A DNA stretch of 64,000 nt, from positions 1 through 64,000 of the forward strand of contig NZ_JAODNV010000004.1 of the NCBI RefSeq assembly GCF_025398195.1, given 5' to 3'. The first letter of the stretch is position 1, and each line of letters opens with the position of its first letter. The stretch comes from Chelativorans petroleitrophicus. Its GTDB lineage: Bacteria; Pseudomonadota; Alphaproteobacteria; Rhizobiales; Rhizobiaceae. Below the pieces are notes generated by a model, which did not search any database, was not told the origin of the DNA, and saw only the letters and a list, made by a program, of their open reading frames with translations. The position numbers and the translations under genes were made by a program. Shown piece after piece: positions 3,509 to 36,854 of the stretch.

Positions 3509-4321
3509 TCACTGTACGCGAGTCGGCTGCGCATGCATGCTGGTGCGCAGGCGTTCCACATTCTCGCTTATGCCTTCCGCCGCGGCCTTAAGACTTGGAA
3601 CGAAGCGTTCCAGAATGTCGCTTCGCTTCACCGCGGTGGCGTAATAGGTCATCCCGATTGTTGCGAGGACGCGGTTGCTTCCATTCTCATAGATCGGCAC
3701 GGCAACGCTCGAAGACGCCTCGTCCTTGTAATGCTTGGTGCGCTCGGCAAACTGCTGGCGCCTCGTGATTTCGATCATGTGTTCTATGAGGTCGAGCGCG
3801 TACATCTGATCCGAATCAGGATGCTGGGTCGTTTGTAACAGCCTGAAAAGCAGGCGCCGTTCCTCTGGCGGGCAGAAGGCAAGATAGGCGCGCCCGAGCG
3901 CCTTGCTTACCAGTCCAAGGTGCTTGTAGGTCAGCGCGTGGTACGGCGCTATCGGACTTTCACCGCAAGTGGTGTAGCAAACCAGCATGGCGTTTCCATC
4001 CAGGACGGAGATTGCCACCGGCCAAGTATACATGCGGGTGAGCTCCTGCGCCCAAGCCCGTCCCGCCTCTACCACGAGGGGCGCTCCATGAAACCCGCAG
4101 GATAATGCGCTTACCTGAGAGGTAACCTGGTAGCCCTTTCCATCCGGAATGCGAGACACGAAACCCGCTGCTATGAGTGTTTCCAGCAGCCGCACAATTG
4201 TCGGCTTCGGCATACCCGTGGCCCGGTGAATATCATGTACCGTCGAGACGCATTGCTGGTTCAGTACGACCAGAACATCAAGCGATCGCATCACCGCGCT
4301 GACAGGTGCGTAAGACGCCAT
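3509..4321 (-). CDS. IclR-family transcriptional regulator
   Basis: DNA-binding regulator of about 270 residues. The N-terminal winged helix-turn-helix (VMRSLDVLVVLNQ, then GMPKPTIVRLLETLIAAGFV) is followed by the IclR effector domain, including SKALGRAYLAFCPPEERRLL and VAVPIYENGSNRVLATIGM. The domain resembles MhpR-type aromatic catabolism regulators. Two adjacent ATGs (4324 and 4321) follow GGGAGGG; the second has the better spacing. Its promoter carries the palindromic site at 4344-4362 that recurs in front of the TRAP operon. It is the nearest dedicated regulator to the first transporter cluster and a good candidate to bind one of the two operator families found here. Confidence 0.9.
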   Translation of the reverse strand: MASYAPVSAVMRSLDVLVVLNQQCVSTVHDIHRATGMPKPTIVRLLETLIAAGFVSRIPDGKGYQVTSQVSALSCGFHGAPLVVEAGRAWAQELTRMYTWPVAISVLDGNAMLVCYTTCGESPIAPYHALTYKHLGLVSKALGRAYLAFCPPEERRLLFRLLQTTQHPDSDQMYALDLIEHMIEITRRQQFAERTKHYKDEASSSVAVPIYENGSNRVLATIGMTYYATAVKRSDILERFVPSLKAAAEGISENVERLRTSMHAQPTRVQ

Positions 4322-4343: not shown

Positions 4344-4362
4344 CTGTCTGACAATATGTCAT
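4344..4362. promoter_or_regulatory. candidate operator, TGTC-T-GACA type, upstream of IclR gene
   Basis: The 13-mer CTGTCTGACAATA lies 23 bp upstream of the IclR start codon and is followed by TGTCAT, so it can be read as TGTC-T-GACA or as CTGAC-AATAT-GTCAT. The same 13-mer occurs in reverse orientation at 21646-21658 in front of the TRAP transporter operon. TGTC-N-GACA resembles sites of GntR regulators of the FCD class, one of which is encoded at 28927-29601. Confidence 0.55.
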
Positions 4363-4547: not shown

Positions 4548-4946
4548 TTAAGCGATCTTTTCCCAGGTCAGCTCGCGATAATTCACCACACCGTTGATCT
4601 CCGCAGGAGGGGCGGTCAGAGTAACGCGATTGCCATCATGGAAGCGAGCGGGCCGCACCTGTCTGGTACCGATGCGCGACGGATTTGTGGGTGTGGAGCA
4701 GTCCACGTCCACATAAAGGGTCTTGCCATCGAAATGGTATGCGCCGGCATACGAAGTATATTCCCGCTCCCCCTCCTCCGGCGGGATTTCCGGACGCCCG
4801 TCGCACAGCACGACCATGCACCGGCCTTCCTCCGTGAACATGTAGATGCCCATCTTCTTGGGGCCATAGGATGAGCGCAGAAGATTGCCGTTCGCGTCCC
4901 TGTTGACTATGTCGACAAGGCGCCAGACGCCGACCAGATCATTCAT
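4548..4946 (-). CDS. lipocalin-like domain protein (Lipocalin_5 type)
   Basis: A 132-residue protein starting at the ATG at 4946 after GGGAGAG. It has the pattern of the small lipocalin-like family: LVGVWRLVDIVNRDANGN at the start, GIYMFTEEGRCMVVL, YTSYAGAYHFDGKTLYVDVDCST, and a closing strand NRVTLTAPP. Family members are small beta-barrels found next to catabolic enzymes, with no established reaction; they may bind or process small hydrophobic compounds. No signal peptide is seen, so it should be cytoplasmic. It is divergent from the LigI-like amidohydrolase, and their shared upstream region contains two copies of the TTTCA-N5-TGAAA operator. Confidence 0.75.
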   Translation of the reverse strand: MNDLVGVWRLVDIVNRDANGNLLRSSYGPKKMGIYMFTEEGRCMVVLCDGRPEIPPEEGEREYTSYAGAYHFDGKTLYVDVDCSTPTNPSRIGTRQVRPARFHDGNRVTLTAPPAEINGVVNYRELTWEKIA

Positions 4947-5073
4947 ACTTCTCTCCCAAGAGGTCGCTGTTGAGCCCGTCCCCGCGACGTCACCCCCGCG
5001 GGGGTATCGCCCATCGGCACTCGCTGCTCGACCCATAGCCACACCGTGAAAAAATCGCTTAAGGCATTGTGGC

Positions 5074-5094
5074 GCATTTCATAATGTGAAACGC
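5074..5094. promoter_or_regulatory. candidate operator GCATTTCA-N5-TGAAACGC (copy 1)
   Basis: A near-perfect palindrome with 8-bp arms (one mismatched pair) around the 5-bp spacer TAATG. It lies in the 418-bp divergent region between the lipocalin-like gene and the first amidohydrolase. Four related sites occur at 5235, 7284, 10012 and 16555, all upstream of genes in the same catabolic region. Confidence 0.6.
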
Positions 5095-5234
5095 ACGAAG
5101 CGTGAGAAACTGCTCACCTGCGTCTGCCGACGCATATGCTGATTCTTGGTGCCGAAATGATAGAGGCGTTGGGCTCATTTTCGATCGGTTCTTGAGAACG
5201 GGCAGCTTCAGGCGATCCCAAGCAAAGCAGTATT

Positions 5235-5255
5235 GCATTTCAGATAATGAAAACC
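5235..5255. promoter_or_regulatory. candidate operator GCATTTCA-N5-TGAAA (copy 2)
   Basis: Second copy in the same divergent region, 161 bp from copy 1. The left arm GCATTTCA is identical to that of copy 1, the spacer is GATAA, and the right arm keeps TGAAA. Apart from the two operator copies the 4947-5364 spacer shows no gene that I would accept. Confidence 0.5.
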
Positions 5256-5364
5256 TGGAACGAAGTATTCGACGCAAGCAGATCACCTTCCCTAAGCGGG
5301 TCTGTCGACCGCAGTAAATGCTGCACAGGCTCGACATCGATGATCAACCGGAGAAGCAGCCCGT

Positions 5365-6174
5365 ATGAACCTGGCGAACGCCCCGCTCGTTGATTCCCAT
5401 TTCCATATCTATGAGCGGAGCATGCCGCTCACCGCTACTGCCTGGCACGAGCCGAAGGAAGATGCGTCCATCGAACGATGCCTGAAGACGCTGGACGAGC
5501 ACGGCGTCAGCTTCGGCGTCATCTCCGCGGCCAGCCTCTACGGCACCTATAACGATTATGTCCGGCGCGCACTCCGCGCACACAAAAGGCTTCGCGGAAC
5601 CGCGATGGTGGATCTCAACTGGGATCTGGACCAGCTCGAAAGACTTCGCGACGATGGCTTTGTCGGGATTCGGCTCCTGTGGCGCCCTCTCGACCAAACT
5701 CCCGATCTCGACGACGAAGCGTATCGGCGCCTGCTGCGCCGATGCGCTGACCTCGGCTGGCACATCCATCTGACCGACAGGGCGGAGCGGATCGAAAGGA
5801 CGATCACCAAGATCGAAGCGGCGGGCGCCGCAGTGGTGATCGATCATCTGGGACTGATCGACACTGCGCAGGGCGTGAACGATCCCGGCTTCCAGGCCAT
5901 TTTGAGGGCGATCGATCGCGGCCGCACTTGGGTGAAGCTTTCCGCAGGCTTTCGTTTCAAGACGCCCGGACTTGCCGATCTTTGCGCGCGCGCTCTTGTA
6001 TCGGCCGGCGGCTGGGAGCGCCTGGTGTGGGCGAGTGACTGGCCGTTCGCGGGCTTCGAGGACAAGGTCACCTACGCGGACACCATCGACGCGCTTTTCC
6101 GCTGGGTACCGGATCCCGCCATGCGCTTCTGCATAACCGCGCGCACACCGATGCGGCTTTACTTCTTCTCCTGA
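5365..6174 (+). CDS. LigI-like amidohydrolase (putative lactonase), copy 1
   Basis: Member of the amidohydrolase_2 family, which includes 2-pyrone-4,6-dicarboxylate lactonase and 4-sulfomuconolactone hydrolase. Length is 269 residues. Expected metal and substrate motifs are present: VDSHFHIYE (HxH) at the N-terminus, WHIHLTDR in mid-protein, VVIDHLG, and WASDWPF with the catalytic aspartate near the C-terminus. The likely reaction is hydrolysis of a lactone or C-C bond in ring cleavage. The ATG follows CCGGAG. A clear paralogue lies at 17750-18550. The gene is divergent from the lipocalin-like gene and preceded by two operator copies, so its expression is probably tied to the Tct transporters. 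Confidence 0.87.
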   Translation: MNLANAPLVDSHFHIYERSMPLTATAWHEPKEDASIERCLKTLDEHGVSFGVISAASLYGTYNDYVRRALRAHKRLRGTAMVDLNWDLDQLERLRDDGFVGIRLLWRPLDQTPDLDDEAYRRLLRRCADLGWHIHLTDRAERIERTITKIEAAGAAVVIDHLGLIDTAQGVNDPGFQAILRAIDRGRTWVKLSAGFRFKTPGLADLCARALVSAGGWERLVWASDWPFAGFEDKVTYADTIDALFRWVPDPAMRFCITARTPMRLYFFS

Positions 6175-6177
6175 ATG

Positions 6178-6216
6178 AAAAGGGCGGCGCAGCGCACCGC
6201 CCGCACCGCCCTTTTT
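6178..6216. terminator. bidirectional intrinsic terminator
   Basis: AAAAGGGCGG and CCGCCCTTTTT form a 10-bp stem around an 18-nt loop, with an A-run on one side and a T-run on the other. It sits between the convergent amidohydrolase and tctC genes and can end transcripts from both. Confidence 0.85.
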
Positions 6217-6235
6217 ACGAGACCTTCGCCGGGAA

Positions 6236-7210
6236 CTACTCCAGCTTGATGCCCGCCTTCTCGATGACGGGTCCCCAGGTCGCCAGTTCCTTCTCGATCG
6301 TCTCGGCGAGTCCCTCGGGCGTGGTCGGCTCTGGCGTAATGGAGAGCTTCGCCAGGGCCTCGGCAGTTTCCGGCAGGTTCAAATATTCGGTCACCGTCTG
6401 GTTGATGACCCTCACCGCCTCGGGGTCCATGCCCTTAGGGCCGAGAAGCGAGTACCAGATATAGGATTCGAAATCGATGCCGCTCTCCTTCAGCGTCGGC
6501 ACGTCCTCGGGCATCAGCGGGTTGCGCTCGGCGCCGAGCTGCGCGAGGTAGCGGGCCTTGCCCTCCTGAACATAGGAAAGGTAGGACGGCATGCTGTCGC
6601 TCGATGCCTGGACATGGCCGGCAAGCAGGTCCGGAATGAGCGTGCCCGAACCCGTATAGGGAATGATCTTCAAATCGAGATCGAGCTCGTCCACCAGCCA
6701 CTCCATGGCCACGTGCCCCAGCCCGCCGACGCCCGGATGCGCGACGGAAACTTCGCCAGGGTGCTCCTTGACGTAAGCGATGAACTCCTTGATGTCCTTG
6801 TAGGGCTGCTGCGCACCGGCGGCGATGACCATGGACGAGGTGCCGAGCTTCATGATCGGCGTCAACTCCTGAGGGTCGTAGGCCAGGTTGGGATAAAGCA
6901 GCTTGGCGTTCGCGGCATTGCCGTTCGTGGCAAACAGGATCGTGTAACCGTCAGGTTTCGCATTCGCCACGGCGGTGGCGCCGATCGTCCCCGATGCGCC
7001 CGGCCGGTTCTCCACGATGACCGGAACGCCGAGTTTCTTTTCCATATAATCGGCGATCATGCGCGTGAACACGTCGGCACCGCCGGGTGGAAAGCCGATC
7101 ACGATGGTGATCTGGCGTTCCGGAAAGGCGGCGGACGCGTTGGCTGCCATCGACATGGCGCCCAGGCAAGCGACTGCGACGGTGGCCAGGAACTTTCTGA
7201 CAGAGCTCAT
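6236..7210 (-). CDS. tctC: tripartite tricarboxylate transporter substrate-binding protein (TctC/Bug), copy 1
   Basis: Periplasmic solute-binding protein of the Bug/TctC family, 324 residues. A signal peptide (MSSVRKFLATVAVACLGAMS, cut after ANASA) precedes the mature start FPERQITIVIGFPPGGADVFTRM. The family motifs GVPVIVENRPGASGTIGA and AKPDGYTILF follow. It should deliver a carboxylate to the TctB/TctA pair encoded divergently at 10152-12123. The ATG at 7210 has GGGAGGA upstream. It is the last gene of a minus-strand run (aldolase, cupin, DUF6282, tctC), but a copy of the TTTCA operator at 7284 suggests its own promoter as well. Confidence 0.92.
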   Translation of the reverse strand: MSSVRKFLATVAVACLGAMSMAANASAAFPERQITIVIGFPPGGADVFTRMIADYMEKKLGVPVIVENRPGASGTIGATAVANAKPDGYTILFATNGNAANAKLLYPNLAYDPQELTPIMKLGTSSMVIAAGAQQPYKDIKEFIAYVKEHPGEVSVAHPGVGGLGHVAMEWLVDELDLDLKIIPYTGSGTLIPDLLAGHVQASSDSMPSYLSYVQEGKARYLAQLGAERNPLMPEDVPTLKESGIDFESYIWYSLLGPKGMDPEAVRVINQTVTEYLNLPETAEALAKLSITPEPTTPEGLAETIEKELATWGPVIEKAGIKLE

Positions 7211-7283
7211 TGATTCCTCCCTGAGTTTCACAACAAACCGATCATGCTGGGGTACGCTCGCGTCTTTCTAATTCTCTCTGTGT

Positions 7284-7304
7284 GCATTCCACTGCTTGAA
7301 ATCC
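7284..7304. promoter_or_regulatory. candidate operator (copy 3), upstream of tctC copy 1
   Basis: GCATTCCA, the spacer CTGCT, then TGAAA: one mismatch in the left arm relative to copies 1 and 2, with the same 5-bp spacer. It lies in the 100-bp gap between the DUF6282 gene and tctC, about 75 bp upstream of the tctC start codon. Confidence 0.45.
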
Positions 7305-7310
7305 TCGCCA

Positions 7311-8222
7311 TCAGGAAAGATTCAGCATCCTGGAGCCGTTGGTGGAGATCATCGTGCGGATATCGGCCGCCTCCACTCCCAGATCGAGGAGATGGCCGAC
7401 AAAGGTGCGATATCCCTCCACAGGCGGCAAGGCTCCCTGAAGTCCCAGATCTGAGCCAAATAAAGTGTTCTCCACACCGGCCACCTCGATGAGATGCAGT
7501 GCAAACTCCGGCTCGAACTTCTTGCCGCGTCCTTCGATGAACTGGGTGATGGAGTGCTCCATCTTCACCCCGATCGACACCATCTGCCGGATGTCTTCGT
7601 CCGTGCAGCCGACGACGTAAGTGGGATGGTTGACAAGCATCTTACGGACGCCGCGCCGCTTCGCCTCCTCGAAGAGCAGATGCAATTCGGCGGCGCCCAA
7701 ATGGCCACTGGCCAAGATGATGTCGGCCGCCGCGATGATATCGAGTACTTTAAGCGTATCGTCGGTAAGCCGCCCGTTGGCATCCAGGACCGAGAGCGGT
7801 ATCGCCTCCAGGGCTCCGGCAACTTTCGGAAACCCCTTCGCTTCCGTCGCCGTCTTGGCAATATGGTTTGCCGCGGAAAACGTCGGCATCCAGACGATCT
7901 TTGCGCCCAATTTGGCGGCATGATCGACCGCGTGAGGGTTGATGCCCCCGGAGGCATTGTTGAGCACAATGCCCGAATACATCCGCACCTTCAGGTCCGG
8001 GCACAGCTTATGCAGGATCATGCAGTGAGGTGTGCCCAGATAGTAATGATCCTTGGTCACAACTGCCTTAAATCCTGCCGCGTCGGCCGCAACCATCTGA
8101 TCGTGATGGTCCAGAATACGAGGCATGACCGCCGGACCGCTATGGCAGTGCAGATCGACGGCTCCGACCAGCAGCTCGGCAATCTGCTGGTCGCGCACGT
8201 TCGTCGCTGAGCTTGAGCTCAT
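7311..8222 (-). CDS. DUF6282-type metal-dependent hydrolase-like protein
   Basis: Protein of 303 residues resembling amidohydrolase/PHP-like TIM barrels grouped as DUF6282. Visible features are VDLHCHSGPAVMPR (HxH near the N-terminus), AVVTKDHYY, VWMPTFSAANH, LASGHLGAAELHLL, LVNHPTYVVGC and LFGSDLGLQG, a set of His and Asp residues compatible with a binuclear metal site. The start at 8222 follows GGGAG; an ATG at 8240 is also open. The substrate is unknown. It stands between the cupin gene (19-bp gap) and tctC and probably acts on the compound imported by that transporter. Confidence 0.72.
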   Translation of the reverse strand: MSSSSATNVRDQQIAELLVGAVDLHCHSGPAVMPRILDHHDQMVAADAAGFKAVVTKDHYYLGTPHCMILHKLCPDLKVRMYSGIVLNNASGGINPHAVDHAAKLGAKIVWMPTFSAANHIAKTATEAKGFPKVAGALEAIPLSVLDANGRLTDDTLKVLDIIAAADIILASGHLGAAELHLLFEEAKRRGVRKMLVNHPTYVVGCTDEDIRQMVSIGVKMEHSITQFIEGRGKKFEPEFALHLIEVAGVENTLFGSDLGLQGALPPVEGYRTFVGHLLDLGVEAADIRTMISTNGSRMLNLS

Positions 8223-8240
8223 AAGATATCTCCCATTCAA

Positions 8241-9140
8241 TCAGGCCTGGGGCTCGGGATATTCGTCAGCATTGAGCACCCAACCCGGCTGGCGCGAGAA
8301 ATCAGCTCTCGGAGGGCAGAATATGTCGATCAGCAGGTTGGTGCCGGTCCCCACGGCTTCAGACGTATGCAGCACTCCAGCCGGGATGATGGTGACCGAA
8401 GGCGCCCCGCAGGTCTCATGATCGTCCGAGCGCCATTCGTTAGCGTTCTTCGTCCAGGGCCAGCGCAGATGATGCACGTAGGTTCCTTCGAGACAAAGCG
8501 AGCATTGCTGAAAGTCGGCATGGGAATGCGGAGAAAGCTGGCTGCGATCGCGCGGCCCGTTGCGTGGGTAGATGTAATTGACCATGAAGTCGGACGAGCG
8601 GATCAACCGGCCGAACCTGCCTTCCTCCTGCGGCACGTCCATGGAATACCAGCGCACCTTGTGGCCTCCTACGGGATCGGGCCATGACACGAGAGGAGGA
8701 ACATTCGGGTCGGCAGTGCCAATCTTGCAGCGAGCAACGATGTCGGAGACGCGGCGCGTGAACAGCCGTACCATGCGACCGCCCCTGTAAACCGTGATCC
8801 GGCTCGGCCCTGGTGGAACGATGACGACACTGTGACCGGCGCCTTCAGTCGTCGTTCCGTTCCATTCGATGGAAAGCCGTGTATCCGGATCGGGAAGGAT
8901 GATGACGAATTCGTCCGGCTGCTCCGTTCGATCGAAAACGGCGCCGGCATCCATCTCGCTATACGCAACCACGAAGTTCGCCGCGCCGGCATACCAGGTA
9001 CGCACGCTGTCCGAACGCTCGTCCGGGTCAGTCTCGTAGAACCGGGCATATGTGGCTGGCGCCGGAGCGCTCAAGACTTTCTTTCCGTCGTTCTCCGAGG
9101 GTACTTTCAGCCTGGAGCGTGGATCGGAATCGGGATACAT
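8241..9140 (-). CDS. cupin-domain protein, probably bicupin
   Basis: About 300 residues with two cupin-like halves. The N-terminal half has DEFVIILPD and GAGHSVVIVPPGPSRI. The C-terminal half has the metal-binding pattern LSPHSHADFQQCSLCLEGTYVHHLRWPW and a closing PAGVLHTSEAVG. Three histidines and a nearby glutamate could bind Fe or Mn. Cupins of this type are dioxygenases, isomerases or decarboxylases; which applies is not clear. The ATG at 9140 has AGAAGG eight bases upstream; an ATG at 9146 is too close to it. It lies in one transcription unit with the aldolase (24-bp gap) and the DUF6282 gene. Confidence 0.7.
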   Translation of the reverse strand: MYPDSDPRSRLKVPSENDGKKVLSAPAPATYARFYETDPDERSDSVRTWYAGAANFVVAYSEMDAGAVFDRTEQPDEFVIILPDPDTRLSIEWNGTTTEGAGHSVVIVPPGPSRITVYRGGRMVRLFTRRVSDIVARCKIGTADPNVPPLVSWPDPVGGHKVRWYSMDVPQEEGRFGRLIRSSDFMVNYIYPRNGPRDRSQLSPHSHADFQQCSLCLEGTYVHHLRWPWTKNANEWRSDDHETCGAPSVTIIPAGVLHTSEAVGTGTNLLIDIFCPPRADFSRQPGWVLNADEYPEPQA

Positions 9141-9164
9141 TACCATGTCCTTCTGATATTCGGA

Positions 9165-9935
9165 TTATTTCGGTCCGTGCGCCGTCAGCGCCTCCTGAGC
9201 TGCCCTGCGCAGAAATGCGAGATCGGAGCCGATCAAAAAGCTGGCAGCGCCGAGTTCGGCCATGGCGGCCTGGTCCGCAGGACTTTCGGCCAACATTATT
9301 AGCGTCTTGCCCACGGCCCGAGTGGCCCGTGCAACCGTCTCGACGGCGGCGCGCACGGCTGGCGCGGCGGTCGAAATCTCCCCCATAGCAACCGATAAAT
9401 CGCCACGCCCGACGAAGACCGCATCGATACCTGGTACGGCAACAATGGCATCGATATTGTCGACACCGGCTGGCTCCTCGATCATTGCAATGCAGAGAAT
9501 TTCCTCGTCCTGCCGAGCCAGATGCTCAGCGACACCAACCGCCCCGTAACCGCCAGCGCGGCCCGTCCGTGAAAAACCGCGCCGCCCGCCTCGATACCGA
9601 CAGGCCATGGCTACCTCATGCGCCTTCTCAGGCGAGTCGACATGCGGGACCATGATGCCGGCCGCGCCGCAATCAAGCAGAGACAGGATATTGCCGTCCG
9701 ACGCATCGCCAATGCGCACGATAGGCGCCACCCCATTGGCGCGCGCAGCCAGGATAACGACATCGATCGCACTCAGATCGAACGGTGCGTGTTCCTGATC
9801 GATGACAATGAAGTCAAACCCAATGCTGGACAGAACTTCCGTCGTATGGACCGTCGGAACCTTCACAAAGGTGCCGATGTGCCGTTCGCCTGCCCTGAGC
9901 CGGCTGGAAAAGCTGTTTGATCGTTCGGGCCCCAT
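9165..9935 (-). CDS. HpcH/HpaI-family class II aldolase
   Basis: TIM-barrel aldolase of 256 residues. Family motifs are FIVIDQEHAPFD (metal/acid motif), GAAGIMVPHVDSPEKA, RGFSRTGRAGGYG, CIAMIEEPAGVDNIDAI, DAVFVGRGDLSVAMG and FLIGSDLAFL. Relatives (HpaI, GarL) cleave 4-hydroxy-2-oxoacids to pyruvate or glyoxylate and an aldehyde with a divalent metal. GGAGACG precedes the start. As first gene of the minus-strand unit it shares a divergent promoter region with tctB, where the best copy of the TTTCA operator lies. Its probable role is the last carbon-carbon cleavage of the pathway fed by the Tct transporter. Confidence 0.88.
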   Translation of the reverse strand: MGPERSNSFSSRLRAGERHIGTFVKVPTVHTTEVLSSIGFDFIVIDQEHAPFDLSAIDVVILAARANGVAPIVRIGDASDGNILSLLDCGAAGIMVPHVDSPEKAHEVAMACRYRGGRRGFSRTGRAGGYGAVGVAEHLARQDEEILCIAMIEEPAGVDNIDAIVAVPGIDAVFVGRGDLSVAMGEISTAAPAVRAAVETVARATRAVGKTLIMLAESPADQAAMAELGAASFLIGSDLAFLRRAAQEALTAHGPK

Positions 9936-10011
9936 CCGTGCCGTCTCCGTGTATTCCAGTGGCTCGGGAGGCTAATGGGACAGGCTGTCTTAAAGGGACT
10001 TCTCTTTTGCT

Positions 10012-10032
10012 GCGTTTCACATCCTGAAACGC
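10012..10032. promoter_or_regulatory. candidate operator GCGTTTCA-N5-TGAAACGC (copy 4, perfect)
   Basis: A perfect palindrome with 8-bp arms and the spacer CATCC. It is placed between the divergent aldolase and tctB genes, 77 bp from the aldolase start and 120 bp from the tctB start, so one bound regulator could control both directions. Confidence 0.7.
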
Positions 10033-10056
10033 CACCAGTACGGGTTCGACATCGCT

Positions 10057-10073
10057 GTACAGCTTTCCTGTAC
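10057..10073. promoter_or_regulatory. inverted repeat GTACAG-N5-CTGTAC in the aldolase/tctB divergent promoter
   Basis: Perfect 6-bp arms with the 5-bp spacer CTTTC, 24 bp beyond the larger palindrome. It could be a second regulator site or part of the tctB leader; no other copy was noticed. Confidence 0.35.
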
Positions 10074-10151
10074 TGCGCTGACCATAACTGTGAGAAGCTC
10101 ACCACCGCATGGGAAATCGGCAGTGGGATTCACCGTGAAGGAGGGTATAAC

Positions 10152-10613
10152 TTGACAGTTAGCCGCAAGGAAATCTCGGCAGGCGCGATGTTCATCGCAT
10201 TTGGCCTCGCCTACGGATATCAATCGGCGTTCGGCCTGCAGGTGGGCACGGTAAGGAATATGGGACCAGGCCTGTTCCCACTTGCCCTGTCGATCATTCT
10301 CTTTGGGATCGGACTGGCGGTCGCGTTCAACGGATTGCAGGGAGATCGGCTCGCATCCAAGAGCGCAGGCATCCCCTGGCGGCCAATCTGTTTCATATCG
10401 GCAGCAACGGTCTGTTTCGCGCTGTTCGCCACGACGCTGGGCATGCTGCCGGTGACGTTTCTCATCACATTCATAGCCTCCTTCGCCCGCAAGCAGACGC
10501 GCGTCCTGCCGGCCTTGTTCATGTCGGCATGCATCGCGGTATTCTGCAGTCTGCTCTTCACCTATGGGTTGGGCCTGCCACTGCCGGTATTCGGCTCCCT
10601 GTTCAGGAGCTAG
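10152..10613 (+). CDS. tctB: tripartite tricarboxylate transporter small permease TctB, copy 1
   Basis: Small membrane subunit of 153 residues with four hydrophobic segments: AGAMFIAFGLAYGYQSAFG, LFPLALSIILFGIGLAVAF, WRPICFISAATVCFALFATTL to VTFLITFIAS, and ALFMSACIAVFCSLLFTYG. The signature VGTVRNMGPGLFP is typical of TctB. The start is a TTG at 10152, chosen because AGGAGGG lies six bases upstream; longer in-frame starts would add about 59 non-conserved residues. It forms the inner-membrane channel with TctA, which begins 4 bp after its stop codon. Confidence 0.9.
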   Translation: MTVSRKEISAGAMFIAFGLAYGYQSAFGLQVGTVRNMGPGLFPLALSIILFGIGLAVAFNGLQGDRLASKSAGIPWRPICFISAATVCFALFATTLGMLPVTFLITFIASFARKQTRVLPALFMSACIAVFCSLLFTYGLGLPLPVFGSLFRS

Positions 10614-10617
10614 CACT

Positions 10618-12123
10618 ATGGAATTTCTTTCCAACCTCGCCATCGGCTTCAGCGTCGTTGCACAGCCGACAAACCTTCTCTACTGCTTCATCGGAGTGTT
10701 CCTCGGAACTGCCATTGGCGTTCTTCCGGGAGTTGGGCCGCTTGCCACGATAGCAATGCTCCTTCCCATGACATTCGGGCTCTCGCCCGAGGGAGCGATC
10801 ATCATGCTGGCCGGCATCTATTACGGTTCCCAATATGGCGGATCGACCACGGCCATTCTGATGAAGCTGCCCGGCGAGGCATCCTCGGTCGTCACCACGA
10901 TAGACGGCTATCAGATGGCGCAGAAAGGCCGCGCGGGACCCGCACTTGCTGCCGCCGCTATCGGTTCCTTCGTTGCAGGGACGGTCGCGACGGTGTTGGT
11001 AGCCGTGGTGGCTACGCCGCTCACTCTGCTGGCTTTCCAATTCAGCCCTGCGGAGTATTTCTCCCTGATGGTCCTCGGCCTCGTCTTCTCGATCGCACTG
11101 GCTTCAGGCTCATTGCTGAAGGCGCTCGGAATGATCTGCCTTGGCCTGCTTCTCGGCCTGACAGGAACGGATATCTACACCGGAGCAACCCGCTTCACCT
11201 ACGGCTTGCGAGAGCTCTTCGACGGCCTCGAATTCACGGCCGTTGCGGTCGGCATGTTCGGCATCAGCGAGATCATCCGGAACCTTGCCGGAAAAGACGA
11301 GCTCCGTGGGCCCGTGGCACGCATAGGCAGCCTTTGGCCGACGCGTGAGGACCGTCGCCGCATGATTGCACCAATCCTGCGCGGAACGGCGCTGGGTTCC
11401 TTGCTTGGCGTTCTCCCCGGGGGCGGCGCTTTGCTTGCCTCCTTCGTTTCCTACACGGTCGAGAAAAAGGTCTCCCCTCACGGGCATGAGATGGGCAATG
11501 GAGCCATCGAAGGCGTAGCCGCGCCGGAAGCAGCCAACAATGCCGGCGCGCAAACCTCCTTCATTCCCATGCTTTCGCTTGGAATTCCTTCGAATGTCGT
11601 CACCGCGCTCATCATCGGTGCGCTCATCATCCAGGGCATCGTGCCCGGGCCGGGAGTGATCTCGAAAAACCCGGAGCTGTTTTGGGGACTGATCGTGTCG
11701 ATGTGGGTTGGCAATATGATGCTTCTTGCCCTCAACCTGCCCCTGATCGGAATGTGGGTGAAGCTGTTGCAAATACCCTACACCATATTGTTCCCGTTGA
11801 TCATCGCCTTCTGCTGCATCGGCGTGTTCTCGATCGGCAACTCGTCCTTCCCGATCTACCAGCTGACGATCTTCGGCCTGCTCGGCTACGTGTTCGCGAG
11901 GCTTGATTGCGACCTGGCGCCGTTCATACTCGGTTTCATCCTCGGCCCGATGATCGAGGAGAATTTCAGGAGAGCTCTGCTGATATCCGGCGGCGATCTC
12001 AGCGTATTCGTCACACGACCGATCAGTGCAGGCCTCCTTGCCACTGCTGTCATAGCGCTCGTGGTGGTCTCCCTGCCTTTCATCAAGCGCAAGCGGGAAG
12101 ACATTTTCGTAGAGGAGAGCTGA
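10618..12123 (+). CDS. tctA: tripartite tricarboxylate transporter large permease TctA, copy 1
   Basis: Large permease of 501 residues with about twelve hydrophobic segments. The two repeated TctA signatures are visible: GTAIGVLPGVGPLATIAMLLP with YYGSQYGGSTTAILMKLPGE, and GSLLGVLPGGGALLASFVSY with APEAANNAGAQTSFIPMLSLGIP. It couples cation flux to uptake of a carboxylate delivered by TctC. The ATG at 10618 lies just after the tctB stop, so the two genes are co-translated. The matching binding protein is probably the divergent TctC at 6236-7210. Its 3' end faces the tctA of the second system. Confidence 0.93.
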   Translation: MEFLSNLAIGFSVVAQPTNLLYCFIGVFLGTAIGVLPGVGPLATIAMLLPMTFGLSPEGAIIMLAGIYYGSQYGGSTTAILMKLPGEASSVVTTIDGYQMAQKGRAGPALAAAAIGSFVAGTVATVLVAVVATPLTLLAFQFSPAEYFSLMVLGLVFSIALASGSLLKALGMICLGLLLGLTGTDIYTGATRFTYGLRELFDGLEFTAVAVGMFGISEIIRNLAGKDELRGPVARIGSLWPTREDRRRMIAPILRGTALGSLLGVLPGGGALLASFVSYTVEKKVSPHGHEMGNGAIEGVAAPEAANNAGAQTSFIPMLSLGIPSNVVTALIIGALIIQGIVPGPGVISKNPELFWGLIVSMWVGNMMLLALNLPLIGMWVKLLQIPYTILFPLIIAFCCIGVFSIGNSSFPIYQLTIFGLLGYVFARLDCDLAPFILGFILGPMIEENFRRALLISGGDLSVFVTRPISAGLLATAVIALVVVSLPFIKRKREDIFVEES

Positions 12124-12142
12124 CGCGACGTTCCCCAACCCG

Positions 12143-12173
12143 GCAGGACGGCGCGGAAACCGCACCGTCCTGC
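12143..12173. terminator. hairpin downstream of tctA copy 1
   Basis: GCAGGACGG and CCGTCCTGC pair as a 9-bp stem; after one mismatch it continues as GCGG-AAA-CCGC. No T-run follows, so it may act as a 3' stability hairpin or rho-assisted stop. The rest of 12124-12398, between the convergent tctA genes, shows nothing I recognise. Confidence 0.55.
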
Positions 12174-12398
12174 GCGAACTGCATCGAATCTTGTGGGGAC
12201 CTCGAATTACCGTCGAGCTCAGACTTGAAAGACGGTACTCACCCCACCACGCCGCTGCGATGCGGTGAATGTGCTGAATTTGATAGGCGATGCCAGCCTT
12301 CTGCCCGGTCCCGCATCATGCAAGACATCGCTCTTCTCCCGTGGCAGATGCCTTGGTTCGAAACTTCTTCCTGCGTCCTTAGGGCGGCGGCAGACCGG

Positions 12399-13910
12399 TC
12401 ACGAGGGCTGTTCGGACACAACGGCTCTGCGTGCCCTGTAGACGTTCCAGAGGCTCCACAGGAGCAGTGCAGCGGCCAGCAGCACAAACGCCGCGCTGAC
12501 GGGGCGTGTCACGAAAATATCGAGGCTGCCACGTGACAGCAGCATGGCACGGCGGAACTGCTGCTCCATCATCGGCCCCAGGACAAATCCAAGGAGCAGT
12601 GGCGCTGCGGGGAAGCCCATCAGGCGCGCCCCGTAGCCGACGAGGCCGAAAAGCAGCGTCAGGAAGACATCGAACGTGCTGCCGCTAACGCTATACACAC
12701 CGATGCAGATGAAGACCACGATGGCAGGATAAAGCACATGGTAGGGGATCGTCAGCAGCCTCACCCAGATCCCGATCATCGGAATGTTCAGGAGGACAAG
12801 GAGGATGTTGCCGATCCAGAAGCTCATTACCACGCCCCAGAAAAGGTCGGGCCTCTCCGCCATCATGGCCGGGCCGGGCGTGATGCCATGAATGATGAGC
12901 AGCCCCAGGATCAAGGCCATCGTGGCGCTGCCCGGAATGCCGAGCACCATGGTCGGGATGAAGGACGCCTGGTCAGAAGCATTGTTTGCGGTTTCGGGAG
13001 CGACCACGCCCTCGATCGCGCCTTTGCCGAAGCGCTCCGGCTCGCGCGAAACCTTCTTCTCGAGGGCATAGGAAAGAAAGGACGACACCGAAGGTCCCAC
13101 GCCCGGCATGATACCAAAGAACGATCCGATTCCCGAAGCGCGGATCATCGGCATCCATGATCGGCGGATGTCTTCCCGTGTCGGCATCATCGATCGCAGC
13201 GAGACCCGGCCTATGTCGGTCACGGCAGCTTGGCGGACGCTCCACATCACTTCCGCGATGCCGAAGAAGCCCATTGCCAGCGCGACAAGACTTATACCGT
13301 CGACAAGCTCAACAATGCCGAAGATAAAACGGGCCTGGCCTGTCTGCACATCAAGCCCGACAACGCCTAGCAGAATACCGACCATCACCATCGCGATGCC
13401 TTTGATGGCCGATCCGTCCGAGATCACACAGGCGGCGATCAGCCCGACGATCATGAAGGAGAAGTACTCGGCTGGACCGAAGCTGAGGGCAACCTTCACC
13501 AGCGGCTGCGAGAACAACATCATCAGGACGATGCCGACGCTGGCTCCAAAGAAGCTCCCCGCAGTGGTCATGAACAGCGCCACGCCAGCACGGCCCTGCC
13601 GCGCCATCGGATAGCCGTCCAGGCAAACAACCGCGCTCGAGGGCGTGCCAGGCAGGTTGAGCAGGATGGCCGCTGTGGATCCTCCGTAAGAGCTTCCGTA
13701 CCAGATGCCAGCAAGCATGATGATAGCCGTCGTGGGTTCGAGGTAAAACGTGATTGGGAAAAGCATCGACATGGTTGCCAGAGTCCCGAGTCCCGGCAGC
13801 ACTCCGACAACCATTCCCAGCGTCACGCCGATCGCGCAGTAAATGAGATTCTCAACCGTGAGGGCGGTCGAAAGGCCCAGCGCGAGGTTGAGCAAAAGAT
13901 CATTCAGCAT
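12399..13910 (-). CDS. tctA: tripartite tricarboxylate transporter large permease TctA, copy 2
   Basis: Second large permease, 503 residues, with the same repeated signatures as copy 1: GMVVGVLPGLGTLATMSMLFP with WYGSSYGGSTAAILLNLPGT, and GSFFGIMPGVGPSVSSFLSY with APETANNASDQASFIPTMVLGIP. It is a full-length paralogue, not a remnant. It follows tctB copy 2 with a 3-bp gap and is the last gene of a minus-strand operon that starts with the alpha/beta hydrolase. The two tctA sequences are clearly diverged, which suggests distinct substrates instead of recent duplication. Confidence 0.93.
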   Translation of the reverse strand: MLNDLLLNLALGLSTALTVENLIYCAIGVTLGMVVGVLPGLGTLATMSMLFPITFYLEPTTAIIMLAGIWYGSSYGGSTAAILLNLPGTPSSAVVCLDGYPMARQGRAGVALFMTTAGSFFGASVGIVLMMLFSQPLVKVALSFGPAEYFSFMIVGLIAACVISDGSAIKGIAMVMVGILLGVVGLDVQTGQARFIFGIVELVDGISLVALAMGFFGIAEVMWSVRQAAVTDIGRVSLRSMMPTREDIRRSWMPMIRASGIGSFFGIMPGVGPSVSSFLSYALEKKVSREPERFGKGAIEGVVAPETANNASDQASFIPTMVLGIPGSATMALILGLLIIHGITPGPAMMAERPDLFWGVVMSFWIGNILLVLLNIPMIGIWVRLLTIPYHVLYPAIVVFICIGVYSVSGSTFDVFLTLLFGLVGYGARLMGFPAAPLLLGFVLGPMMEQQFRRAMLLSRGSLDIFVTRPVSAAFVLLAAALLLWSLWNVYRARRAVVSEQPS

Positions 13911-13913
13911 GGT

Positions 13914-14372
13914 TCACCGCGGCCAATTGAAGGCGGACAGGGGTATGTTGAGTCCGACCTGGAAGATGAGGAATCCAATCATCGACAGGCTGCCGGCCAG
14001 CAGAACAATCCCCGCCAGCGATAACCTCGCGTCCGAACGGCTCGAGATGGCGACGACCGCGACTATTGCGGGCACGAAGCCGAAAGGCCTGATCAGGGCA
14101 GCAAACGCGATGACCGACAGGGAGATGAACAGCATCGAACGGTGATCGACCTCAATGCGCGGTCCGCTGCTGCGCAGGCCCCCGATCAGGATCACCGTTC
14201 CTAGAAGGGCTATGACGACGCCCACCGCTGCTGGAAACATGCCCGGCCCCATCTGCCAGACGGTACCGAGCCTGAGGGAGGTCACGGCATGGATCGCGGC
14301 AGAACTTCCAAGGACCAGAAGGAACCCCCCGCCGATGATGTCCCGGTATTCACGCATACCGATACCCGCCAT
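13914..14372 (-). CDS. tctB: tripartite tricarboxylate transporter small permease TctB, copy 2
   Basis: Small permease of 152 residues with four hydrophobic segments (IIGGGFLLVLGSSAAIHAV, FPAAVGVVIALLGTVILI, MLFISLSVIAFAALI to VPAIVAVVAI, and LAGIVLLAGSLSMIGFLIF) and the TctB signature LGTVWQMGPGMFP. An ATG five codons inside (14357) is an alternative start; neither has a strong ribosome-binding site. It sits between the SMP-30 gene and tctA of the second Tct system. Confidence 0.88.
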   Translation of the reverse strand: MAGIGMREYRDIIGGGFLLVLGSSAAIHAVTSLRLGTVWQMGPGMFPAAVGVVIALLGTVILIGGLRSSGPRIEVDHRSMLFISLSVIAFAALIRPFGFVPAIVAVVAISSRSDARLSLAGIVLLAGSLSMIGFLIFQVGLNIPLSAFNWPR

Positions 14373-14499
14373 CCCGGTCGTCAGAAGCGCACGTCACGAC
14401 CAAGCCCACCCGGCTGCGGAAGTTACGGGCAAAATTCATGTTGGTCATTGGTGTCTCCCTCTGAATCGGGCCTGTCGCGTTTTCGTGCGGGCCAACGGT

Positions 14500-15405
14500 T
14501 CATCCTGCAAACGGTGGCTGAATAAAGCCGCTCACCGGTGAGTGGACGGCGAACAACGCTCCCGCCAGCGGTTGTTCGGCAAGCTGATGTTCCGTCAATT
14601 TTCCGGATGCCGTTGTGATGAACAGGGTACGCATGTCCGATCCCCCAAAAGCGACGCTAGTCACCTTTTCGACGGGCAGTTCGACGGACAGGTCGACCCG
14701 GCCTGTCGGATCGATCCGCACGACTCTCCAACCGCCAAAGCACGCGATCCATAGGCATCCTTCCACATCGATCGCCGCTCCGTCCGGCATGCCGGGGATG
14801 CCGTAAAAGTCGTGGAACCGACGCTGCGCCCCGAGGCCGCCCTCTATCGGATCCAGTTCTTGCGCCCATATGGTTCTGCGGCGGGAATCCGCAAAGTATA
14901 CGGTGGTGTAGGAAGGGTCGAAGCAGATGCCGTTCGGGATCAGGAGTCCCCCCCGGACATTCCTGATGGTGCCGGCGGGATCAAGCAGATGTATCCCACC
15001 GGTCGGACTCTCACCGGAGCGTTCCATTGTCCCAATCCAGAGGCGACCCAGGCAATCGACCGCCGCTTCGTTTACGCGATGCGTCGCCTGACTTTCCGGC
15101 GGCGGAATTTCGGCGATCAGAGCGCCGACCCGCTCGAACCCGTATCGATGGAGGCCGCTGTCCAGAGCAACGACCGCTCCCCCTCCTTTCCGGGGGGCCC
15201 ATCCGCCAACCGTCTTGCCGGGAAGCTGCCGAACCTCGTGCCGGCCAGTGGACATCTCAAGCGACTGCAGGCTGGCCCGCGAGACATCCAGCCACCAGAT
15301 GCGGTCGCCCTCGGGGTCCCATACCGGCACCTCCCCCAGGATGTCTTTGCAGTTCAGGATGCACTCTGCCTTCACGCTTCGCGCCACATGCGGCAGGATC
15401 GCCAC
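14500..15405 (-). CDS. SMP-30/gluconolactonase-family lactonase
   Basis: Six-bladed beta-propeller hydrolase of 301 residues. Metal-binding and family motifs are ILGEVPVWDPEGDRIWWLD (metal Glu), RVNEAAVDCLGRLWIGTM (metal Asn), GLLIPNGICFDP (Asn), TVYFADSRRRTIW and GMPDGAAIDVEGCLWIACFGG (Asp). Relatives hydrolyse sugar or other lactones using Ca or Zn. The start is GTG at 15405, with GGAGGAG seven bases upstream. The gene lies between tctC and tctB of the second transporter, so the lactone may be made from, or be, the imported compound. It is one of several candidate lactone hydrolases in the region. Confidence 0.88.
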   Translation of the reverse strand: MAILPHVARSVKAECILNCKDILGEVPVWDPEGDRIWWLDVSRASLQSLEMSTGRHEVRQLPGKTVGGWAPRKGGGAVVALDSGLHRYGFERVGALIAEIPPPESQATHRVNEAAVDCLGRLWIGTMERSGESPTGGIHLLDPAGTIRNVRGGLLIPNGICFDPSYTTVYFADSRRRTIWAQELDPIEGGLGAQRRFHDFYGIPGMPDGAAIDVEGCLWIACFGGWRVVRIDPTGRVDLSVELPVEKVTSVAFGGSDMRTLFITTASGKLTEHQLAEQPLAGALFAVHSPVSGFIQPPFAG

Positions 15406-15460
15406 GTCGATGCTCCTCCGGCTTGGCGAGCGTAAAGTCCGCCCGCCACGCTCCGGGAAA

Positions 15461-16444
15461 TCAATTGCTCTTGCTCTGATTGCCGCCCTCGAAGATGGCC
15501 CTGATCTGCTTGTCCCGCTGTTCGATCAGTTCGAGAACGCCCTCGGGGCCGCGGTTCAGAGCCCGGTTGTTGAACTGGACCATTAGCTCGGCGTAGCTTT
15601 CGGAGTTCACCGCTTCATCAATGACCTCCTCCAGACAGGTCCTGACCTCCGGATCAAGTTCCCGAGGTGCGATGAGCACCGTGACACTTTGGATCGGCAG
15701 GGCCGTCGCGCCCTGCTCCTCAAGTGTCGGGATGTCAGGGGCATAGGGGAGACGGTGCTCGGTCACCGACGCGATCAGCTTCATGTTGCCGGAGCGTAGC
15801 TCTCCAAGATGGGCAACACCCTGGATTGTCGCGTCCACATGCCCGCCAAGCGTCAGCATCATCGACTCTGATGATCCTTCGACAGGCACCGGCACGAGAT
15901 TGATGTCGTACTGCTCCGCCAGCTGCTGGACGACTAGGGTTTGGTTGAAACCGGCAACGGCGACCGTCGCCATGCCCTTCTCACGCGTATATTCGACGAG
16001 GCCGGCGATATCGTCGAACGGCATCGATGAAAGAGCGGCAAAACTGTTCCAGCTGTCCATGGCGGAACCGAGGAAGTGGAACTCGCTATAGTGGAAACCC
16101 AGGTCGTCGGCTGTAGGGTTGTAGACCATCGTGTCACTGCTGCCGAGGCCGATGCTGTAGCCGTCAGGTTCGGCATTCAGCAGCGAGCGCGCCATAACAG
16201 CACTGGCGGCCCCCGGCCTGTTTTCGACGACGACGGTCCAGCCGTGCTGCTCCTCGATGGCCTTCGCCAGCATCCTCGCGATGGCATCCGTACCGCCGCC
16301 CGCGGCATAGCCGACGTAGAAGTTGACGGGCTTGCTTGGAAATCCGTCCGGACACGTCGCGGCCCGCGCATCCTGCATGTCCAGTGTCAGAACCGTTGCG
16401 GCCGACCAGAGAAGCACCCCCCTGAACGTTCCTCCCCTCGACAT
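15461..16444 (-). CDS. tctC: tripartite tricarboxylate transporter substrate-binding protein (TctC/Bug), copy 2
   Basis: Periplasmic binding protein of about 327 residues. It has a short signal peptide (RGVLLWSAATVLTLDMQDARA), then CPDGFPSKPVNFYVGYAAGGGTDAIARM, GWTVVVENRPGAASAVMA and AEPDGYSIGLG. The sequence is distant from copy 1. I place the start at the ATG at 16444 behind GGGAGGA; a GTG two codons earlier is possible. It belongs to the minus-strand operon with the alpha/beta hydrolase, SMP-30, tctB and tctA, and has its own TTTCA-type operator at 16555. Confidence 0.9.
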   Translation of the reverse strand: MSRGGTFRGVLLWSAATVLTLDMQDARAATCPDGFPSKPVNFYVGYAAGGGTDAIARMLAKAIEEQHGWTVVVENRPGAASAVMARSLLNAEPDGYSIGLGSSDTMVYNPTADDLGFHYSEFHFLGSAMDSWNSFAALSSMPFDDIAGLVEYTREKGMATVAVAGFNQTLVVQQLAEQYDINLVPVPVEGSSESMMLTLGGHVDATIQGVAHLGELRSGNMKLIASVTEHRLPYAPDIPTLEEQGATALPIQSVTVLIAPRELDPEVRTCLEEVIDEAVNSESYAELMVQFNNRALNRGPEGVLELIEQRDKQIRAIFEGGNQSKSN

Positions 16445-16554
16445 CTCCACATTCCTCCCTGGTGAGATTTCCGGACTGCCGAGCGGCGGTAATATCGCTG
16501 CAAGGCTGGCGCACTTTGTTGTGCGACCACCCCTGGCTCCAGACATTTCCCGCT

Positions 16555-16575
16555 GGTTTTCAATAGATGAAATGT
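16555..16575. promoter_or_regulatory. candidate operator (copy 5), upstream of tctC copy 2
   Basis: TTTCA, the spacer ATAGA, then TGAAA: the core is a perfect palindrome with the same 5-bp spacing as copies 1-4, while the outer bases differ. It lies in the 147-bp gap between the alpha/beta hydrolase gene and tctC. Confidence 0.45.
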
Positions 16576-16591
16576 CGAGGGCTGTGTGGGT

Positions 16592-17584
16592 TCACCGCAG
16601 AAATTCGTCGACGCGCGCCAAAAACTCGTTTCTGCCGCGTTCGGGACGGTCGAGCAGCAAATAGTGGGTGCAGTTGGCCGCCCGCCAGTGGATCACGCTT
16701 GGTGCATGATAGAGATCCTCACAGAAGACCTCCATGTCGGTATCGCGGCACAACGCATCGTATTCCGGATTGACGATGAAGACCGGGCAGTAGATCTGGC
16801 TGGCGTGGAACAGCTTCTGGCCCGTTGCGCCCATGATGTAGAGATCCTCCAGCATCCCGTTCGGACTGCGGTAGGTGGGCGGTGTGCGCGTCCGTGAGGT
16901 CGGATCGCCGTCAAGCAGGGCGTTCCTGAGGGCCGTCACCATTGCGGGATCCCGCCAGGCCGTCTTGTCCGCGATGGGGATCTGCTCGTCCCAGTGCTTT
17001 TCTAGGAGCTCGATCCCATTGAAAGTGTAGTTGCCAAACTTCTTCTGATTGAAACGTCCCGGGCGTTGCGGATCGTCCCACTGAGAGCCAATCCTGATGG
17101 TGGGGTGGTCGCCGGTGCCGCCATACACCATGCAATAGAGAACGAGGTGACTGACCTTCTCAGGATGAAGCGCGGCGTACATTGCCACACATGTAGCACC
17201 CACGCCCCAGCCCAGAAGGGCGACACGTCCACGGCCGGTCGCCCTGCGGAGGTGATCGACGGCGGCATCGACATCGCGCGTAATCTCGATCGTTCTGCAC
17301 AGGGGACGCGTCGGCCGAGGAGGCAGATCCATTTCTGCAGGCCGGTCGGAGCGGCCATATCCCCGCGCATCGACGATGTAGCAGACATGACCCGCAGCGG
17401 CGAGGTCGGCGGCCAGCGAACCGTTCTCGACCGGCAGATCGAATTCGCTGAGGCCGGGGATGCGCGTCCCATGCATCAGAACCATGGGGACGCGCGCGGC
17501 ATCGCCCCGCGGACGCACCTCTCTGATGGCGATCCTGACGCCGTCAGCCGTCCGAACGTGGAAATCGCGCCGCAAGATGTTCAT
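16592..17584 (-). CDS. alpha/beta-hydrolase-fold protein lacking the nucleophilic serine
   Basis: Protein of 330 residues with a typical alpha/beta-hydrolase layout: MVLMHGTR (oxyanion-hole strand, residues 34-41), VDARGYGRSDRP, a nucleophile elbow, NPEYDALC as the acid region, and ANCTHYLLLDRP supplying the histidine. The elbow reads GWGVG at 125-129 in place of GxSxG: residue 127 is glycine (codon GGC, one base from the serine codon AGC). It may be a non-hydrolytic member, use another mechanism, or be inactive. It heads the second Tct operon and is divergent from the second LigI-like amidohydrolase. The frame is otherwise intact. Confidence 0.82.
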   Translation of the reverse strand: MNILRRDFHVRTADGVRIAIREVRPRGDAARVPMVLMHGTRIPGLSEFDLPVENGSLAADLAAAGHVCYIVDARGYGRSDRPAEMDLPPRPTRPLCRTIEITRDVDAAVDHLRRATGRGRVALLGWGVGATCVAMYAALHPEKVSHLVLYCMVYGGTGDHPTIRIGSQWDDPQRPGRFNQKKFGNYTFNGIELLEKHWDEQIPIADKTAWRDPAMVTALRNALLDGDPTSRTRTPPTYRSPNGMLEDLYIMGATGQKLFHASQIYCPVFIVNPEYDALCRDTDMEVFCEDLYHAPSVIHWRAANCTHYLLLDRPERGRNEFLARVDEFLR

Positions 17585-17749
17585 GAGATGCCCTCCGCGG
17601 GGTGAAACCGTCGGAGGCCCCTACCGGATTGCTCCGGTTTTGTGAAAGGTAAACCCACCGGATTTCACTTTACGGAATGGAGCAAACGAGGCATTGCCCC
17701 ACCGCGCGACAGCCTCACCCTTGTCCGGAAAGCACTCCGGAAAGAGATC

Positions 17750-21639: not shown

Positions 21640-21658
21640 CTGACCTATTGTCAGACAG
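21640..21658. promoter_or_regulatory. candidate operator CTGAC-N5-GTCAG / TGTC-A-GACA
   Basis: CTGAC-CTATT-GTCAG is a perfect inverted repeat, overlapping TGTC-A-GACA on its right side. The 13 bases 21646-21658, read on the minus strand, are identical to 4344-4356 upstream of the IclR gene. The site is 27 bp upstream of dctP and about 50 bp upstream of the divergent SDR start. Confidence 0.6.
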
Positions 21659-36828: not shown

Positions 36829-36854
36829 CAGTCAGCGATTCCGATCCCGGCGCC

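Follow-up and report, generated by a model that had tools for sequence, protein, structure and literature searches.

The sequence studied here, referred to as the window, is the initial 64 kb of contig C34 (NZ_JAODNV010000004.1) of Chelativorans petroleitrophicus, the genome of which has 3,959,353 bp on 69 contigs. The window carries genes for an IclR-family regulator, two Tct-type transporters and several catabolic enzymes. Six copies of a palindrome lie between these genes, and we consider them here as putative operators of the IclR-family protein. The original prediction, made from the letters alone, had placed five palindromes with TTTCA and TGAAA half-sites and a 5-bp spacer in this region, and all five are present, at 5074–5094, 5235–5255, 7284–7304, 10012–10032 and 16555–16575. 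Four contain the core TTTCA-N5-TGAAA exactly (at 5077, 5238, 10015 and 16558) whilst the core at 7287 has one mismatch (TTCCA). The predicted count of five has to be raised by one, as a sixth site at 17660–17680 (core at 17663) precedes a divergent pair of alpha/beta hydrolase and amidohydrolase genes. The GC-flanked form that had been proposed, GCRTTTCA-N5-TGAAAYGC, is complete only at 5074 and at 10012, the latter indeed with perfect 8-bp arms, and these are the sole sites without a mismatch in the whole genome; the conserved element is RTTTCA-N5-TGAAAY, with the outer GC a weaker feature.

The operators are numbered by position and given without strand. Operator 1 (5074–5094; GCATTTCATAATGTGAAACGC) is centred 138 bp upstream of the start of a gene for a lipocalin-like protein (4548–4946, minus strand; Pfam Lipocalin_5), behind which, after a gap of 226 bp, lies the IclR-family gene (3509–4321, minus strand; PF09339 HTH_IclR, 1.2e-9, and PF01614 IclR_C, 9.4e-12, both above cut-off); the two likely share a transcript. 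Operator 2 (5235–5255), 161 bp from operator 1, lies 120 bp upstream of an amidohydrolase gene (5365–6174, plus strand; Pfam Amidohydro_2), and operator 3 (7284–7304; TTCCA-N5-TGAAA) 84 bp upstream of tctC1, which encodes a solute-binding protein (6236–7210, minus strand; Pfam TctC). Operator 4 (10012–10032) stands between a gene run on the minus strand, 87 bp away, and tctB1 and tctA1 on the plus strand (10152–12123; Pfam TctB and TctA; TTG start inferred for tctB1), 130 bp away. The run encodes an HpcH/HpaI-type aldolase as its first gene (9165–9935; Pfam), a bicupin-like protein (8241–9143; no Pfam match) and a DUF6282 protein (7311–8222; Pfam). Operator 5 (16555–16575), 115 bp upstream of tctC2 with the start taken as 16450, heads tctC2, an SMP-30/gluconolactonase-like gene, tctB2 and tctA2 (12399–16450, minus strand; Pfam TctC, SGL, TctB and TctA), which likely form one operon. 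Operator 6 (17660–17680; TTTCACTTTACGGAA) is placed midway, 80 and 86 bp from the two gene starts, between the divergent alpha/beta hydrolase gene (16592–17584, minus strand; Pfam) and the second amidohydrolase gene (17750–18550, plus strand; Pfam Amidohydro_2), the product of which also matches a 4-sulfomuconolactone hydrolase model far below its cut-off.

A gene map based on codon usage agrees with the predicted intergenic position of the first five sites and, together with the distances, with the targets proposed for them, namely the lipocalin/amidohydrolase pair, both tctC genes and the aldolase/tctBA divergence. An ATG open reading frame (ORF) at 9975–10613 spans the site at 10012, the TctB start probably being at 10152, and the tctC2 ORF can be extended to 16546, yet ends short of the site at 16555. 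DUF6282 is named in no paper of the literature searched. The structure model of the bicupin-like protein (mean pLDDT 89.9, 21 aligned sequences) resembles the fold of oxalate decarboxylase and quercetin dioxygenase (E around 1e-10, TM around 0.5, 11–14% identity), and residues His206, His208 and His259, which are invariant, would fit a metal site. The same protein is matched by 24 ORFs in 63 loci, including five Bacilli loci with DUF6282.

Conservation of the palindrome in orthologous clusters

Orthologues of the IclR protein were drawn at four ranks, each count including the genome studied here: 23 of 297 genomes for the order (E ≤ 1e-30), 3 of 394 for the family (1e-85), 2 of 385 for the class (1e-65) and 2 of 398 for the phylum (1e-80). 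The best three, in genomes G1279 (70% identity), G276 (66%) and G1047 (62%), are encoded in clusters that share the gene families of the window, with a lipocalin homologue directly before the IclR gene in each. The G276 cluster has four exact cores and one with a single mismatch, and its exact site at L098:14956 is the counterpart of operator 6, with the same gene pair, layout and place. G1279 and G1047 were examined after the core had been fixed; the former has exact cores at L135:13314 (98 bp before tctC and within the terminal part of a called DUF6282 gene), L135:15398 and L136:3759 and one-mismatch cores at L135:10583, L135:19741 and L136:7138, and the latter exact cores at L137:4831, 5809, 10824, 15515 and 19014 and a one-mismatch core at 19126. 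Across the window and these three clusters, where intergenic DNA makes up 8,357 of 80,130 bp, 15 of the 16 exact cores lie between genes, as do 11 of the 12 that are outside the window, and the pattern is therefore not equally frequent inside genes. A comparison of sites and flanks at four orthologous promoters carried little information: the flanks align at chance-like levels when gapped and, ungapped, match at about 25–50% of positions (bar one 3-base flank), compared with 8–10 of 10 core bases. The sites are real and conserved.

A related pattern has been published. The consensus given for the IclR group 1 operator in the main text of Suvorova and Gelfand (2021; PMC8222616) is GKTYCRYW3RYGRAMC, with the core KTYCR-N5-YGRAM. 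In the G276, G1279 and G1047 loci this core occurs 16 times in 7,195 bp of intergenic DNA and six times within genes in the other 61,332 bp, and 15 of the 16 intergenic matches belong to the TTTCA or TTCCA type. The window has seven intergenic matches, six of which are the six operators, and four genic ones.

Rarity within the genome and the strength of the motif were assessed in several ways. The exact core occurs eight times in the 3,959,353 bp, four of them inside an 11.5-kb part of the window, and the reversed pattern not at all. Two of the remaining four are on contig C68, one is on C54, between genes and facing a putative ORF, and one on C65. As called, two of the eight are genic, that on C65 and that at C68:135516, where the start called for a FAH-like gene, overlapping an IclR paralogue, has probably been set too far upstream, the Pfam domain of that gene lying well downstream. 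The relaxed form TTYCA-N5-TGRAA has 19 genome sites against three for the control (six in the window, one of these genic, three on C68 and ten elsewhere, among them the exact cores on C54 and C65), and the GC-extended form with up to three mismatches has 51 sites, compared with 24 for its reversal. Simply counting sites at two mismatches gives a weak signal, 17 versus 11.1 expected, with 7 of 100 shuffles as high. Because the motif had been picked from the data, all 5-mer half-sites with spacers of 0–12 were set in open competition over positions 5000–16999, and TTTCA with spacer 5 came top with four occurrences, ahead of runners-up with two; a count of four was reached in one of 200 shuffles.

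Two position matrices were then scanned over the window. The first, built from 20 training sites in other genomes that had been picked by the window's own core and hence partly circular, ranks the original five sites first to fifth (24.3 to 20.9), followed by operator 6 (14.5), a site in the bicupin gene (12.5) and one before a GntR gene (12.1); eight window sites reach at least 12, against 1.25 expected from 20 shuffles. Because of that circularity the second was built without the window, from 16 intergenic sites of G276, G1279 and G1047 that fit the published core exactly, and it places the six operators first to sixth in the 64 kb (29.8, 27.1, 20.2, 19.5, 18.3 for 17660, and 17.6), the seventh score (11.7) falling inside a gene. 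The competition test, this independent ranking and the intergenic placement in other genomes bear out the earlier judgement that chance is an unlikely source of the sites. Inspection by eye for a third half-site, as in a three-box operator, gave nothing consistent.

The IclR-family protein as candidate regulator

The original prediction had named the IclR-family protein at 3509–4321 as a possible regulator, and co-occurrence and motif class both support it; on these grounds it very probably reads the palindromes. Of 46 DUF6282 loci in named genomes, 15 (L019–L033) are alphaproteobacterial, and among these an exact intergenic core is found in six of the seven with a related IclR protein (E < 1e-30) and in none of the eight without (Fisher p 0.0014), a p value whose true weight is lower because L019, L020, L023 and L029 are nearly copies of one another and, of the eight loci without a related IclR protein, three are contigs under 11 kb. 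The exception, L021, has a related IclR protein and two one-mismatch cores that fit group 1. The other 31 DUF6282 loci include three with an exact intergenic core, all at 36–39% GC. In the nine site-bearing loci (eight with exact cores and L021 with its one-mismatch cores, compared only to the window's own five regulators) proteins like the window's IclRs occur in all nine, proteins like its GntR in two and proteins like its two LysRs in none.

More distant relatives appear to follow a similar plan. In every one of 16 IclR loci at 39–48% identity (L099–L114) the published core is matched between genes at least once (27 intergenic and 19 genic matches in total), and in eight of the 16 such matches start 22–72 bp before the IclR gene. 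These variant group 1 palindromes suggest a single operator plan whose arms vary from one related IclR protein to the next. In the orthologue-bearing genome G497 a group 1 variant, TTTCACAATGCGGAA, likewise lies just before the IclR gene. As to autoregulation, an operator heads the lipocalin-IclR pair in the window and a BVMO-lipocalin-IclR run in G276, G1279 and G1047.

The orthologous clusters also place operators before genes that have none in the window. In G276, G1279 and G1047 they precede homologues of the window's SDR gene (27606) and BVMO-like genes (36978; 42–45% identity), and in G276 and G1279 those operator-headed runs include PrpD-, PcaC-, MBL- and HIBADH-like genes. The window carries two BVMO-like, SDR, PcaC-, PrpD- and HIBADH-like genes at 25597–28809 and 33288–38918, without an operator, and outside the cluster no site scores above 12.1 with the first matrix. 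With no strong site there, part of an ancestral regulon (genes at 24–39 kb) may have left IclR control in the window lineage.

A second cluster of sites is present in the same genome around an IclR paralogue on contig C68 (L095, G000:C68:124000–143999), with two exact and two one-mismatch cores. One exact core is about 72 bp upstream of the paralogue match (36% identity, C68:134695–135444) and the other lies between divergent aldehyde dehydrogenase and enolase-superfamily genes; just outside these cores the base is mostly A, not C. Neighbouring genes include the aldehyde dehydrogenase, two enolase-superfamily, FAH-like and SnoaL-like genes. A further IclR paralogue of this genome is at C1:15648. 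Within the window, a TATCA-N5-TGACA palindrome at 41068–41088 precedes a second IclR gene (41192–42097; Pfam) and may be that protein's own site.

Promoter spacing and mode of action

In the window and the orthologous clusters 31 site-gene pairs fall within 260 bp (range 2–222, median 87), and in 18 of them the site centre is 72–91 bp before the start codon. Six of 11 two-sided regions have the site midway, at 80/86 (window), 82/83, 84/78, 87/79, 87/91 and 81/77 bp. A second element recurs at a set distance: CTA starts at +45 to +49 of the centre in 13 of the 24 flanks taken from orthologues, in 8 of the 26 from other clusters and in 2 of the 8 from the window (counts reached by 0, 0 and 25 of 5000 circular shifts respectively), with the qualification that CTA was chosen after the flanks, themselves picked by hand, had been seen and that three of the eight other-cluster matches are one promoter in near-copies. 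The longer CTAG, which was noticed first, is found in 10 of 24, 2 of 26 and 0 of 8 flanks, with 0 and 29 of 5000 shifts as high for the first two sets. The CTA element holds its distance where the start codon is farther off (L135:13314 and L136:3759) and so seems tied to the site. Weak preferences for T, G and C at +24, +26 and +28 (63–67% of 27 flanks) may reflect a -35 element; a scan for consensus sigma-70 promoters found three versus 3.3 expected from shuffles. Taken as a -10 element, CTA(G) would imply that transcription starts some 58 bp away from the site centre, a usual place for an activator. We therefore lean, with some confidence, towards an IclR protein that acts by activation rather than repression.

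The strongest alternative keeps the same operator and the same IclR protein and makes the latter a repressor released by an effector. Members of the family may repress, activate or do both (Suvorova and Gelfand, 2021, main text), and in the window itself the spacing lends little support, with the element in two of the eight flanks. In the orthologues, however, the site keeps a set distance from the -10-like element without overlapping it, and centres mostly lie 72–91 bp before start codons, which makes repression a distinctly less probable option, though one to be taken seriously.

Much less probable is that a different regulator reads the palindrome, either the GntR-FCD protein (28927–29601), the LysR protein (35845–36828) or a factor encoded elsewhere. 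The dyad also holds a T-N11-A box like that of LysR sites, and the weak site TTTCACAGGTTGAGA (29606–29626) lies right before the GntR gene, scoring 12.1 with the first matrix and 7.1 with the second; scores of at least 12 are expected 1.25 times per shuffled window, so that this site is not significant alone. GntR, which had been suggested as a possible reader, is a poor candidate: by similarity to the window's own five regulators it is present in two of nine site-bearing loci against nine of nine for IclR, and on that count both it and LysR (none of nine) were rejected; the motif is, moreover, the published IclR group 1 core. Separately, a second promoter element, CTGTCTGACAATAKGTCA, is shared by two places in the window, 4344–4361 (plus strand), just before the iclR start, and 21641–21658 (minus strand), between a TRAP-type dctP and an SDR gene; both copies are exact, and the only other genome match with up to three mismatches, at C7:62744, has three. 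We take CTGTCTGACAATAKGTCA to resemble FadR/GntR-type sites, and this likeness makes the GntR protein at 28927–29601 a candidate for it.

RNA hairpins or terminators are a very improbable explanation of the palindromes. The RNA fold of the site at 10012 beats nearly all shuffles (z -3.30) and those at 5074 and 16555 have z-scores of -1.89 and -1.75, but 5235 (z -0.73) and 7284 (z -0.08) show no folding excess, and as the fold was not shared by all five sites this explanation was rejected; there are also no T-runs after the sites, which lie in divergent promoters and at the heads of gene runs, and the conserved letters TTTCA are not GC-rich. That the sites are a chance cluster of similar words, of the kind a search by eye can find and one of 200 shuffles matched in number, is least credible of all in view of their ranking by the window-free matrix and the 11 of 12 exact cores that are intergenic in three other genomes.

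A model for the regulon

We propose that an IclR dimer, or two dimers where two sites are near each other, would bind RTTTCA-N5-TGAAAY. The six sites would control the lipocalin-IclR, amidohydrolase, tctC1, aldolase-bicupin-DUF6282 and tctBA1 units, as well as tctC2-SMP30-tctBA2 and the alpha/beta hydrolase/amidohydrolase pair, with IclR most likely an activator that depends on a presumed effector. With its centre about 46–47 bp before a -10-like CTA(G), near -58, a bound site would leave the core promoter free, and one site could serve two divergent promoters. A more novel reading is of an undescribed activator-type IclR regulon in which a palindrome placed midway, with either start codon about 82 bp away, drives two promoters that have their -10 elements at a set distance and controls an uncharacterized but widespread catabolic module (bicupin, DUF6282, HpcH-type aldolase and Tct transporter), the BVMO/SDR/HIBADH part having escaped this control in the window lineage, possibly to that of GntR, whose candidate site also precedes iclR. 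We put the probability of this reading as a whole at roughly 0.4.

Several observations weigh against the proposed role of the IclR protein at these sites. No exact core occurs in the 37–38 kb covered for either of the orthologues in G1052 (53% identity, from the same genus) and G497 (48%), and only one of the 16 loci L099–L114 has one, 8.5 kb off. On a tree of IclR proteins (35 rows, nine labelled; L021 and L082, the latter with an exact core 64 bp ahead of the IclR gene, unlabelled; L022 left out as too distant) the TTTCA type needs four changes, hence it does not form one clade. No site lies directly before the window's own iclR. The window distances fall at 72–91 bp in only four of eight cases and span 80–138 bp, with centres at or beyond the edge of the zone of -20 to -80 from the start codon that is usual for IclR sites according to the main text of PMC8222616. 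Finally, CTA in two and CTAG in none of the eight window flanks, together with the after-the-fact choice of CTA, its hand-picked flanks and the near-copies among its matches, count on the same side.

New here are the spacing of site centres to start codons and the recurring CTA(G) element. For a catabolic module that includes uncharacterized enzymes (DUF6282 and bicupin-like), the analysis puts forward a probable regulator together with its operator and the genes it would control jointly, so that the substrate of the module can be sought via the small-molecule response of the IclR protein. The spacing from operator to -10-like element is a testable rule by which IclR activators might be separated from repressors by sequence alone.

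Outside the cluster, the window holds at 218–2520 a DNA methyltransferase gene (Pfam N6_N4_Mtase) and, at the contig start, an excisionase-like ORF recognized by eye only, which with the methyltransferase is possibly a mobile-element remnant.

Comparison with known systems

The original prediction had presented the regulon as one not named by any annotation. No account of it was found by title or abstract opening in the papers searched or in the passages of PMC8222616 covered, but the motif class itself is already published in the latter as IclR group 1. According to that main text, which covers 181 groups of IclR regulators, the group 1 operator is a 17-bp palindrome, RTT-11-AAY. The window sites share this frame (with outer bases varying at some sites), and all six meet the core KTYCRN5YGRAM exactly. 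They differ from group 1 as described in that text in an outer base that is A or G rather than fixed (A at 5074 and 5235), in a spacer that is not AT-restricted (CATCC, for example; the AT-rich W3 is a consensus feature and not invariant), in tending to lie farther upstream of the start codon and in lacking tandem sites 18–22 nt apart. COG3181, COG3333 and COG3618 are tied to IclR regulons in the same main text (PMC8222616). The window resembles such regulons in its local set of transport and catabolic genes. We take the three COGs to be TctC, TctA and an amidohydrolase respectively.

The window IclR protein scores 254.3 bits against NCBIfam NF007342 (PRK09834.1-4; cut-off 251) and lies far below the cut-offs of two sister models. 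PRK09834 is presumably MhpR, which activates from a position upstream of its promoter. The MhpR operator is GGTGCACCTGGTGCACA (Table 1 of PMC8222616), and its arm GGTGCACC differs from those of the window sites, which are RTTTCA. Unlike the MhpR system, the window has no recognizable mhp enzymes. An IclR regulator adjoining a TctC-type transporter recalls the terephthalate and isophthalate regulators TphR and IphR, which are linked to TctC-type uptake. Their operators are TTTTTGCGCATAGCGCAAAAA and GTCTCATCAGAC (Table 1 of PMC8222616), and the window system differs in its operator. Its enzymes are different as well. As its motif belongs to a published class, the operator set described here adds a further member to an already known type of switch.

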